In this document: positions 44,066-46,757 of the stretch, piece after piece
Numbering within the stretch: the stretch's first letter is position 1
Layout of the letters: every line of letters begins with the position of its first letter
NCBI RefSeq assembly: GCF_036067295.1
Contig: NZ_CP107954.1
Span: 6,200,001-6,264,000, forward strand
Direction of reading: 5' to 3'
DNA length: 64,000 bases
Origin: Kribbella sp. NBC_00382
Lineage (GTDB): Bacteria; Actinomycetota; Actinomycetes; Propionibacteriales; Kribbellaceae
The notes under the pieces: generated by a model
Told to the model about the DNA's origin: nothing
Database searches by the model: none
What the model saw: only the letters and a program-made list of their open reading frames with translations
Translations under genes and position numbers: made by a program

Positions 44066-44893
44066 TCAGCGCAGGACCCGGTCGGGTGAGCTGTAGATCA
44101 CACAGCGCTCGCCTCGGGTGAAGCCGACCAGGGTGACGCCGAACCGCCGGGCCAGGTCGACGGCGAGGCTGGACGGTGCGCCGACGGCGACCATCATGCC
44201 GATGCCGGCAGCTACTGCCTTCTGGATCAGCTCGTAGCCCATCCGGCCGCTCACGACGAGCGCGAGGCCCTTGCGGCTGCGCTGGTTGAGTACGGTCCAG
44301 CCGACCACCTTGTCGACGGCGTTGTGGCGACCGACATCCTCGCGTACTACGACCTTCTCGCCGTCCGGGGTGAAGAGGCCTGCCGCGTGCAGTCCACCGG
44401 TACGGCCGAAGGTGGGCTGTGCCTCGCGGAGGAGGTCCGGCAGGCGCAGTACTACGTCCAGCGGCACCTCTACTGGGTCGACTGGTTCGTACTGGCGTTC
44501 GGCGAGCTCGTCGAGGCTCTGCTGGCCGCATACGCCGCAGGCGGCTGAGGTGACGCCGTACCGCTGGGGTGGTTCGCGGTCGGGCGGTCCGTCGAAGGTG
44601 ACCGTGACGGTGTTGAACTGCTGCTCGCGGGTGAGCTTCACGTCGGTGCAGTAGGCGACCGTACTGATCGCGTTCGGCCGTACTGCGAACCCCTCGCCGA
44701 GGCAGAAGCCGGCGGCCAGCTCGAAGTCGGAGCCGGGGGTGCGCATGGTGATGACGAGCGGCTCGGGCGGGCGGCCGGGCCACTCGAGGCGGAGCTCGAG
44801 CGGTTCCTCGGTGACGACCACGTCCTCGCGGCGGGACGTCTTAGCGCCGTCCTGCACCTCGACCTTGTACCGGGTCGTGGGTCCTTTGCTCAT
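44066..44893 (-). CDS. fdhD: FdhD, formate dehydrogenase sulfurtransferase
   Basis: The 275-aa protein shows FdhD hallmarks: ITMRTPGSDFELAAGFCLGEG, the sulfur-carrying SAACGVCG motif (C119, C122), RTGGLHAAGLF and VREDVGRHNAVDK. It transfers sulfur from IscS to the molybdenum cofactor of formate dehydrogenase. No fdh structural gene is in the window, so its client is elsewhere. ATG 44893 follows a TAGTTT box by 6 bases, suggesting a leaderless transcript. The upstream region is the long inverted repeat. Confidence 0.95.
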   Translation of the reverse strand: MSKGPTTRYKVEVQDGAKTSRREDVVVTEEPLELRLEWPGRPPEPLVITMRTPGSDFELAAGFCLGEGFAVRPNAISTVAYCTDVKLTREQQFNTVTVTFDGPPDREPPQRYGVTSAACGVCGQQSLDELAERQYEPVDPVEVPLDVVLRLPDLLREAQPTFGRTGGLHAAGLFTPDGEKVVVREDVGRHNAVDKVVGWTVLNQRSRKGLALVVSGRMGYELIQKAVAAGIGMMVAVGAPSSLAVDLARRFGVTLVGFTRGERCVIYSSPDRVLR

Positions 44894-44899
44894 GTATAC

Positions 44900-44905
44900 A
44901 AACTA
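44900..44905 (-). promoter_or_regulatory. Leaderless-type -10 box (TAGTTT) before fdhD
   Basis: On the minus strand TAGTTT is followed by 6 bases and the fdhD ATG. It abuts the end of the 164-bp inverted repeat, so any -35 would have to lie inside that repeat; none is convincing. Confidence 0.4.
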
Positions 44906-45068
44906 GCGCCCCGTGCTCGGATTCCGCTGGCGCTTGCGGCGCCCAGGCACGCACCTCGCGGCACTGGCGAAGCGTCCACGATGCTCCGCATCGAGGACGC
45001 TCCTCCAGCACCGCGATGCACGCACCTGGACACCGCAATCGCTCACCGGAATCCGAGCACGGGGCGCT
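44905..45068. repeat. 164-bp long imperfect inverted repeat (hairpin-forming)
   Basis: The outer 22 bases of each arm are a perfect inverted repeat (44905-44926 and 45047-45068). The inner arms, 58 and 59 bases, pair through to a 3-base loop (TCC at 44985-44987), with a few unmatched positions at the arm bases and then 12 clear substitutions. Nine of these 12 would be G-U pairs in a minus-strand RNA but A-C mismatches in a plus-strand RNA. It fills the gap between two minus-strand genes. It could be a palindromic mobile element remnant or a structured RNA in the 3' region of the phosphotransferase transcript. No clear target-site duplication is visible. Confidence 0.75.
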
Positions 45069-45074
45069 GGGCCT

Positions 45075-46064
45075 TTACGCCCAGTCACGCCTCAAGGCGA
45101 GCCAGTCGAGGAAGGCCCAGGCGTAGAGGCGCTGGTGGCGGCGGATCTCGGGGGTGCAGCCGGGTGGGGGCGGGGCGTCGAGCTTGTTGAGGAAGTAGAC
45201 GGCGAGGACTGCGGCGAAGCAGTCGAGGTGTTCGGCTGGTGCTGCGCTCGTGAGCGGGCTGGCCTTGAGGGCGGCGAGGGTGTCGATGCCGTCGCGGTGG
45301 GCGAGGGGGAGCAGGCCGACCCAGTCGAACCAGGCGGGTCCGAGGCACAGCCAGTTCCAGTCGACGGTCCAGCAGGTGTTGTGGGCGTCGATGAGGAGGT
45401 TGTCGGGGCGGATGTCGGTGTGGATCGCGGAGGTCGGGGCGAGGGCGGTCGGGTAGAGGTCGACCAGGTCCTGCAGCTCCTGCAGTCGGTCCGGCAGCCA
45501 CGGCTGGAAGCCGTCGGGCATCGGCTCTTTGCCGGCCAGGATCTCGGTCGGCCGGTACCGCGGGAAGTTGCGGTCTTCGATCTCCTCGGTGAAGGGCCGC
45601 AGGTCGTCGAACGGGCTCGGCGTGAGGGCATCCGCCATCAGCTCACAGGTCGCGGTCACCACCGCGAAGTCCTCCGGAGTCCAAGGCATCCCCGGCATCC
45701 GCGCCTCGACCCGCTCGGAGGCAACCGCGAACCATCGGGCTTCGCCTTCAGTGGCGTGCGCCGTGGCCAGGATGCGGGGGACGCGGATCGACTTGGGCAG
45801 GCGGGGGACCAGTTCTGCCTCGCGCTGGTAGGCCAGGTACGGGTGCTGGCTGTCGTCGGCTGCTTTGACGAAGATTTGGCGGCCGTCGGCGAGTTTCAAC
45901 GGAGCTGCGAAGCCGCCGGTGAAGCCGGAGGCGACTGATGGGCCGGCTTCGAGGATTTCGGTGCCTAGGGCAACTGCTAAGGCGGTGCGGAGGGAGGCGG
46001 GGAGAGCGCCCCACGGAGGTCTGGACGACGTGGCGGTGTAGTCGACGTGGGGTGGTCCGCTCAT
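45075..46064 (-). CDS. Aminoglycoside/choline-kinase-like phosphotransferase
   Basis: The 329-aa protein has the APH fold: a Lys in RQIFVKAADD, the catalytic loop IHTDIRPDNLLID (H215, D217, N222) and the metal-binding Asp in TVDWNWLCLGPAWFDW (D235). It phosphorylates a small hydroxyl compound, but the family covers antibiotic, homoserine and choline kinases, and nothing here settles the substrate. ATG 46064 is used; the frame is open further but only over the divergent channel gene. The stop lies in a small hairpin (CTGGGC / GCCCAG) that could help end transcription. Confidence 0.8.
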   Translation of the reverse strand: MSGPPHVDYTATSSRPPWGALPASLRTALAVALGTEILEAGPSVASGFTGGFAAPLKLADGRQIFVKAADDSQHPYLAYQREAELVPRLPKSIRVPRILATAHATEGEARWFAVASERVEARMPGMPWTPEDFAVVTATCELMADALTPSPFDDLRPFTEEIEDRNFPRYRPTEILAGKEPMPDGFQPWLPDRLQELQDLVDLYPTALAPTSAIHTDIRPDNLLIDAHNTCWTVDWNWLCLGPAWFDWVGLLPLAHRDGIDTLAALKASPLTSAAPAEHLDCFAAVLAVYFLNKLDAPPPPGCTPEIRRHQRLYAWAFLDWLALRRDWA

Positions 46065-46130
46065 GGTTGAAGCGTAGGCCGGTCGGCGTGGCGGGCGCCT
46101 TGGGTTTTCGCTGGAGCCAGGGTGGGCGGC

Positions 46131-46136
46131 TACGGT
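46131..46136 (+). promoter_or_regulatory. Leaderless-type -10 box (TACGGT) before the TRIC-like gene
   Basis: TACGGT is followed by 6 bases and GTG 46143, which decides this start over GTG 46122. Confidence 0.4.
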
Positions 46137-46142
46137 GCGGTG

Positions 46143-46757
46143 GTGAGTGGATGGGCTTTGCATGTGCTCGATCTGGTGGGGATCTTCGTGTTCGGGATCA
46201 CCGGAGCGCTGGTCGGAGTACGCAAGAAGCTGGACGTGTTCGGGATCCAGGTGCTGGCGCTGGTGACCGGGCTGGGTGGTGGGTTCATCCGCGACGTACT
46301 GATCGGTGCGACGCCGCCGGCCGCGCTGGTCGACTGGCGCTACCTCGTCGTACCGGTGGCCGCCGGGCTGATCACGTTCTTCCTGCATCCCGGGATCGGC
46401 CGGGTCGAGCGCCTGGTCAACGTCTTCGACGCGGCCGGCCTCGCGCTGTTCTGCGTCACCGGCGCTCGCAAAGCGCTCGAGTACGGCCTGCCGCCGCTGT
46501 CGGCCGCGCTGGTCGGCACCATCTCCGGAATCGGCGGCGGCGTCATCCGCGACCTACTCTCCGGCCGCGTCCCCGTAGTACTGCGGAGCGAGATCTACGC
46601 CACCCCGGCATTCCTCGGCGCCGGTATCGTGGTCGTCGTCAACGCTCTGCACTACGACGCACCCTGGACCACCCTCGCCGCGGCCGTCGTCTGCTTCCTC
46701 ATCCGCTTCATCGCCATCCGCCGAGGCTGGAACGCCCCACTACCCCGTATGACGTAG
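46143..46757 (+). CDS. TRIC/UPF0126 family cation channel (YadS-like)
   Basis: The 204-aa membrane protein has two repeats of three helices each with the signature GGGFIRD in repeat one (TGLGGGFIRDVLIG) and again in repeat two (SGIGGGVIRDLLSGRVP). This internal duplication is typical of prokaryotic TRIC channels, trimeric potassium-selective pores in the inner membrane. GTG 46143 is favoured by the TACGGT box. It is divergent from the phosphotransferase gene and its last bases overlap the convergent MerR gene. Confidence 0.92.
   Translation: MSGWALHVLDLVGIFVFGITGALVGVRKKLDVFGIQVLALVTGLGGGFIRDVLIGATPPAALVDWRYLVVPVAAGLITFFLHPGIGRVERLVNVFDAAGLALFCVTGARKALEYGLPPLSAALVGTISGIGGGVIRDLLSGRVPVVLRSEIYATPAFLGAGIVVVVNALHYDAPWTTLAAAVVCFLIRFIAIRRGWNAPLPRMT

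Follow-up and report, generated by a model that had tools for sequence, protein, structure and literature searches.

The window analysed here is a 64,000-nucleotide stretch of the Kribbella sp. NBC_00382 chromosome (contig NZ_CP107954.1, positions 6,200,001 to 6,264,000), in which a 164-nt palindromic element nearly fills the gap between a phosphotransferase gene and fdhD, lying 6 bp from the stop codon of the former and 11 bp from the start of the latter. Gene predictions come from a simple script that scores codon usage and was trained on the window, and no gene was called across the element. The features of the locus are as follows.

44905..45068, minus strand (the stable or "sense" strand): the whole element, 164 nt, whose AGCG...CGCT ends are a variant of the AGTG...CACT ends of the family
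45047..45068, minus strand: 5' outer arm, freely variable in sequence among copies but with complementarity kept
44905..44926, minus strand: 3' outer arm, a perfect complement of the 5' arm
44928..45045, minus strand: conserved core of 118 nt, common to the Kribbella copies and holding the strand-specific G-U pairs
45013..45027, minus strand: conserved motif AGGTGCGTGCATCGC on the left side of the core, retained across Propionibacteriales
44946..44959, minus strand: conserved motif GCGAGGTGCGTGCC on the right side of the core, pairing with the left motif through tandem U-G/G-U pairs
44894..44904, minus strand: AGTTTGTATAC, target sequence that separates the element from the start of fdhD
45069..45074, minus strand: AGGCCC, between the phosphotransferase stop codon and the element
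44066..44893, minus strand: fdhD (FdhD/NarQ family), the downstream neighbour, outside the element and given for context
45075..46388, minus strand: APH-family phosphotransferase gene, the upstream neighbour, also context; its true start may lie further in

The original prediction described an inverted repeat with perfect 22-bp ends, and this is borne out: 44905-44926 and 45047-45068 match exactly, and the minus strand of the whole interval folds into a single hairpin of 66 Watson-Crick and 9 G-U pairs closed by a 3-nt loop, interrupted by five 1x1 mismatches (GG, three AG, and TT) and one bulged A. There are no A-C pairs on this strand, and minus-strand wobbles account for 9 of about 15 inner departures from complementarity, close to the 9 of 12 first claimed. 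The predicted RNA folding energy is -155.5 kcal/mol for the minus and -125.8 kcal/mol for the plus strand, a difference of about 30 (z-scores of -16.3 and -14.8, with none of 200 shuffled sequences folding as well), and DNA parameters also favour the minus strand, by about 19 kcal/mol (-91.4 versus -72.5). No run of T directly follows the stem of this copy on either strand, as would mark an intrinsic terminator, and Rfam searches with this copy and seven other loci returned nothing above the gathering score, only sub-threshold chance matches to plant microRNAs.

A search of the single 8.49 Mb contig of Kribbella sp. NBC_00382 found about 19 dispersed copies of the core, and the hairpin in the window is therefore not a chance one. 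Five other complete Kribbella genomes contain 8 to 29 copies each, and copies are present in all 38 Kribbella genomes searched, with scores falling sharply outside the genus. Among the matches listed, all 59 that fit the pattern exactly and lie in named genomes come from Kribbella, except for two contigs labelled Streptomyces sp. SID13031, which seemingly belong to a genome grouped with Kribbella here. Most Kribbella copies are exactly 164 nt long with ends AGTG...CACT, and what they share at their termini is only an AGTGYCC-like sequence of about 4-9 nt, the terminal 22 bp being otherwise not conserved. Two Kribbella genomes also hold subfamilies with a diverged core scoring at about 30-60 bits (L181-L190 in G012 and L192-L198 in G034), most of which keep paired variable arms.

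A broader model built from 28 sequences finds the same anatomy in at least 81 of 395 Actinomycetes genomes and in at least 22 of 138 genera sampled evenly across the class. The loci that were folded have ends of the CTAGTG or CTAGGG type, arms that pair despite their varied sequence, and an asymmetric motif that is conserved among them, GCATCGCAAGGC / CAACGCNGCGAGG; the same strand is the better folder in each. Related copies reside on large plasmids of Streptomyces, Embleya, and Kitasatospora and are intergenic where annotated; plasmids searched with the Kribbella core gave no match and with the Streptomyces types many, while viral contigs and phage records gave none. The labels Streptomyces-like, Micromonospora-like, and Nocardioidaceae-like applied below to genomes outside Kribbella derive from kinship labels and plasmid hits and should be taken as approximate.

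The outer arms are free in sequence and nonetheless paired. Across the outer 25 pairs of 35 copies 96% of cells are paired and 24 of the 25 pairs have changed on both sides, with a covariation score of 0.83 compared with 0.24 in shuffles and about 0.14 when the arms are slid against each other; at several positions among pairs 10-20 each of the four pair types occurs. Copies whose cores diverge by 0-2% differ in their arms by about 0.32. Orthologous copies in different species also carry changes on both sides with pairing retained, showing that complementarity is kept in place. Renewal of the arms from target sequence at each insertion was considered and rejected, because identical dispersed copies have the same arms. 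At one site beside a Fur-type regulator gene (L002 and L026) two species carry different arms, for which repeated insertion, conversion between copies, and fast paired change are indistinguishable here. In G026 this site (L101, G026:C4 near 261,400) is occupied by a palindrome of 18 nt, AGTCCTCCCCGGAGGACT, which looks like an element collapsed through loss of its interior.

Comparison of filled and empty sites shows that the element moves. In the 30 genomes read at the fdhD site, the element adjoins the gene only in Kribbella sp. NBC_00382; a close relative reads GGATC/TAGATTGTATACATG at the empty site, and NBC_00382 reads GGCCC-(164 nt)-AGTTTGTATACATG. For most of 12 other NBC_00382 copies, the joined flanks likewise have an uninterrupted counterpart in relatives. 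Two copies in genome G016 are identical over all 164 nt in unrelated flanks, which shows recent mobility. The early suggestion of a MITE-like repeat is right. With dispersed copies, empty sites, recent identical copies, and no coding capacity, the family has the attributes of a non-autonomous mobile palindromic element.

Insertion occurs at (C)T/AR with a net gain of 164 bp, plus or minus one. No clean target-site duplication is seen because junctions differ by roughly 1 bp from copy to copy and the T on the left looks independent of the A on the right; three sites (L075, L080, and L081) fit a TA duplication, and others have one base extra or missing. Only 2 of 105 listed copies are inside predicted genes, and 57 (about 54%) have a stop codon no more than 12 nt away. 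For about a third (33 of 105) the end of the element overlaps the stop codon by 1-3 nt at T/AG, such that the element supplies the TAG and the stop is restored. Two NBC_00382 copies (L079, near 1,087,946, and L082, near 7,785,516) are situated in the loop of an inverted repeat that resembles a terminator, a placement that suggests hairpin loops or 3' ends as targets.

The directional wobble bias is real and is a property of the family. In arm pairs 1-20 of 98 elements, departures read on the stable strand comprise 51 GT, 7 AC, and 36 others (p = 2e-9 for GT against AC, although these cells are not independent events). The stable strand is the better folder in 104 of 104 copies, by a mean of 38 kcal/mol. 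The bias had also been linked to mRNA made from the two adjacent minus-strand genes, which the hairpin might protect or end, or alternatively to a biased mutation process, and neither idea is supported. The site in the window, where the genes and the stable strand run in the same direction, is a minority case: for the 105 listed copies both neighbours are antisense to the stable strand at 42, both co-directional at 23, convergent at 18, and divergent at 16. The GT:AC ratio is 29:1 where both neighbours are antisense (41 elements) and 11:0 in the co-directional group. The 16 elements between divergent genes have no GT excess (GT 4, AC 5; the numbers are small), and the other three settings pooled give 47:1. 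GC skew on the stable strand is -0.025 in the flanks and +0.16 in the element, and a general mutation bias is rejected since the flanks point the opposite way. Since the wobble bias is equally strong with antisense neighbours, and since the base skew of the element runs counter to that of its flanks, this bias is a property of the element and not of a host mRNA.

In Kribbella, orientation follows the direction of replication. With the origin placed by dnaA and the terminus assumed to lie opposite it, 118 of the 122 copies counted across six complete genomes of the genus have their stable strand antiparallel to the advancing fork (p = 3e-30), including all 19 in NBC_00382. The exceptions are one copy in G028 and three in G027, of which one is beside the origin and two are in the last fifth of a replichore arm. 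Copies are scarce toward the terminus: the final 30% of the replichores holds only 13 of the 122. A site about 3 kb from dnaA is occupied in opposite orientations in NBC_00382 (L084, 2,338,522) and G027 (L172, 4,394,498). Beyond the genus, 7 of 8 copies in a Nocardioidaceae-like genome (G208) and both copies in G045 conform. In other orders polarity may be looser or missing: two Micromonospora-like genomes give 11 of 15, with origins that are rough (based on skew) or assumed, and the listed strands in one Streptomyces-like genome, for which the origin is not located, misfit a mid-chromosome origin.

Several explanations could account for parts of this behavior. The stable strand might be transcribed and its hairpin selected as an mRNA stabiliser, a terminator, or a small RNA, as would agree with the strong covariation, the one-strand preference for G-U over A-C, an asymmetric internal loop conserved across genera, the pairing retained in orthologous copies, and the proximity of about 54% of copies to a stop codon. 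However, neighbouring genes more often transcribe the other strand (42 versus 23) with the same bias there (29:1 versus 11:0), a host-mRNA element should not follow replication polarity, and the element ends have no U-tract and no Rfam match, so that we consider this reading rather unlikely. The near-perfect polarity invites comparison with a host signal of the KOPS or Chi kind, read directionally in replication or chromosome segregation, but this is improbable in the extreme, as there are merely 8-29 copies per complete genome, their presence differs among close relatives, and their density drops toward the terminus rather than increasing; a KOPS-like signal is rejected by this distribution.

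A strong rival for both polarity and wobble bias, if still an unlikely one, is loss of G-T-bearing hairpins to the actinobacterial mismatch nuclease NucS (EndoMS): hairpins extruded on the exposed lagging-strand template would be removed, as copies or as mutations, where they bear G-T, whereas A-C mismatches would persist. NucS prefers G-T, G-G, and T-T and has very weak activity on A-C (PMC8228993). Read on the lagging-strand template, the arm departures are A-C 51, G-T 7, C-C 9, G-G 1, A-A 3, and T-T 1, so the preferred NucS substrates are the rare classes, and the conserved G-U pairs of the core read as A-C. However, selection for stable-strand pairing predicts identical counts, these counts are not independent events, and the existence of conserved wobbles and covarying arms is left unexplained; orientation also seems looser in two genomes outside Propionibacteriales, although NucS is reportedly highly conserved in Actinobacteria. 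We place as less probable again a MITE of the classical kind that targets TA, with a DDE transposase of the IS630/Tc1 type moving it in double-stranded form and its orientation set by selection or by clamp-guided targeting. The CTAR target and the CTAGTG...CACTAG ends are compatible with TA, and binding to the sliding clamp, along with an orientation tied to replication, is known for several IS transposases (PMC5371812). On the other side, an IS630-type DDE_3 gene is absent from four of six genomes tested (NBC_00382, G028, G012, and G034, which carry 8-29 copies), the terminal 22 bp are unconserved beyond about 4-9 nt, unlike transposase-bound terminal inverted repeats, and TA at the two ends is uncorrelated.

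The reading we prefer, and regard as somewhat probable, is that of a non-autonomous palindromic mobile element inserted at replication forks by way of a folded single strand. We infer that the element moves as a folded single strand and that this movement is coupled to the fork. The stable strand is identical in sequence to the nascent lagging strand, so a folded 164-nt hairpin of it, either DNA or an RNA copied to DNA, would be joined in wherever the discontinuous strand has a gap or a nick, and joining would require paired, flush hairpin ends; such a need would leave the arms free in sequence yet obliged to match. The conserved asymmetric core is a putative binding site for a recombinase or host protein. 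The window copy would then have landed in the short phosphotransferase-fdhD gap, and any effect on expression of these genes would be a by-product. Several observations count against this reading: orthologous copies retain pairing, which a purely transposition-based account does not need; no clean target-site duplication is seen; polarity may be looser in other orders; and copies are depleted near the terminus, unlike IS608 and Tn7, which favour the terminus region (PMC5371812). Nor did a mobilising gene emerge: the genes next to copies are ordinary host genes with none recurring, and a Y1 HUH transposase (IS200/RAYT) is absent from five of six copy-bearing genomes, NBC_00382 included, with one partial match in the sixth. 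A bolder and doubtful version is that of a parasitic DNA hairpin that has no dedicated transposase and spreads by host lagging-strand synthesis, its displaced folded strand being joined between Okazaki fragments. If so, it would need for its spread no more than a conserved core and flush arms that match each other, whatever their sequence, and actinomycetes would have a class-wide element in which only self-complementarity is inherited and the arm sequence is free.

The element is relevant to the survival and spread of hairpin DNA at the replication forks of bacteria relying on NucS instead of MutS/MutL, and its distribution in at least 22 of 138 genera and on large Streptomyces plasmids makes it testable in laboratory Streptomyces. 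Motif and topic searches of the open-access literature (Kribbella palindromes, mobile hairpins, and Streptomyces repeats) found neither a description of it nor its core motifs in print, and the 164-bp hairpin element is apparently undescribed to date. Mobile palindromes of small size are on record from several groups of bacteria, but we know of no such element that combines free but complementary arms, near-absolute replication polarity, and stop-codon-restoring insertion.

Insertion polarity set by the replication fork is familiar from RmInt1-type group II introns, and Tn7 with TnsE resembles the Kribbella element in this respect, but 164 nt is too short for a ribozyme, a reverse transcriptase, or Tn7 ends, and there is no enrichment near the terminus. 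IS200/IS605 and REP/RAYT systems recognise hairpins on one strand, move as single strands, and have a replication-following orientation (PMC5371812) that the Kribbella element matches; they differ in that Y1 is missing from five of six genomes, the whole element is one 82-bp stem, and its stable strand is not the lagging-strand template. It fails both the enzyme test for RAYT/IS200 and the terminal-repeat and transposase tests for IS630-type MITEs. ERIC, Correia/NEMIS, and RUP, which are TA-ended MITEs, are similar in being intergenic and non-coding, with 100-170 bp, a long stem-loop, and a TA-like target. These have defined inverted ends and a target-site duplication (PMC2229807); the Kribbella element has about 4-9 shared terminal nt, no clear duplication, and mostly no DDE_3 gene. 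YPAL/RU-2 of Yersinia (168 bp; PMC2229807) is alike in size, in being an intergenic palindrome, and in having filled and empty sites, and it inserts in or beside dyad symmetry, as the two NBC_00382 copies in terminator-like hairpin loops do. YPAL duplicates 3-26 bp and has ends without TA, unlike the Kribbella element, and the passages on YPAL mention neither freely varying complementary arms nor replication polarity. By analogy, the element behaves like a member of the YPAL/ERIC class of small mobile palindromes.
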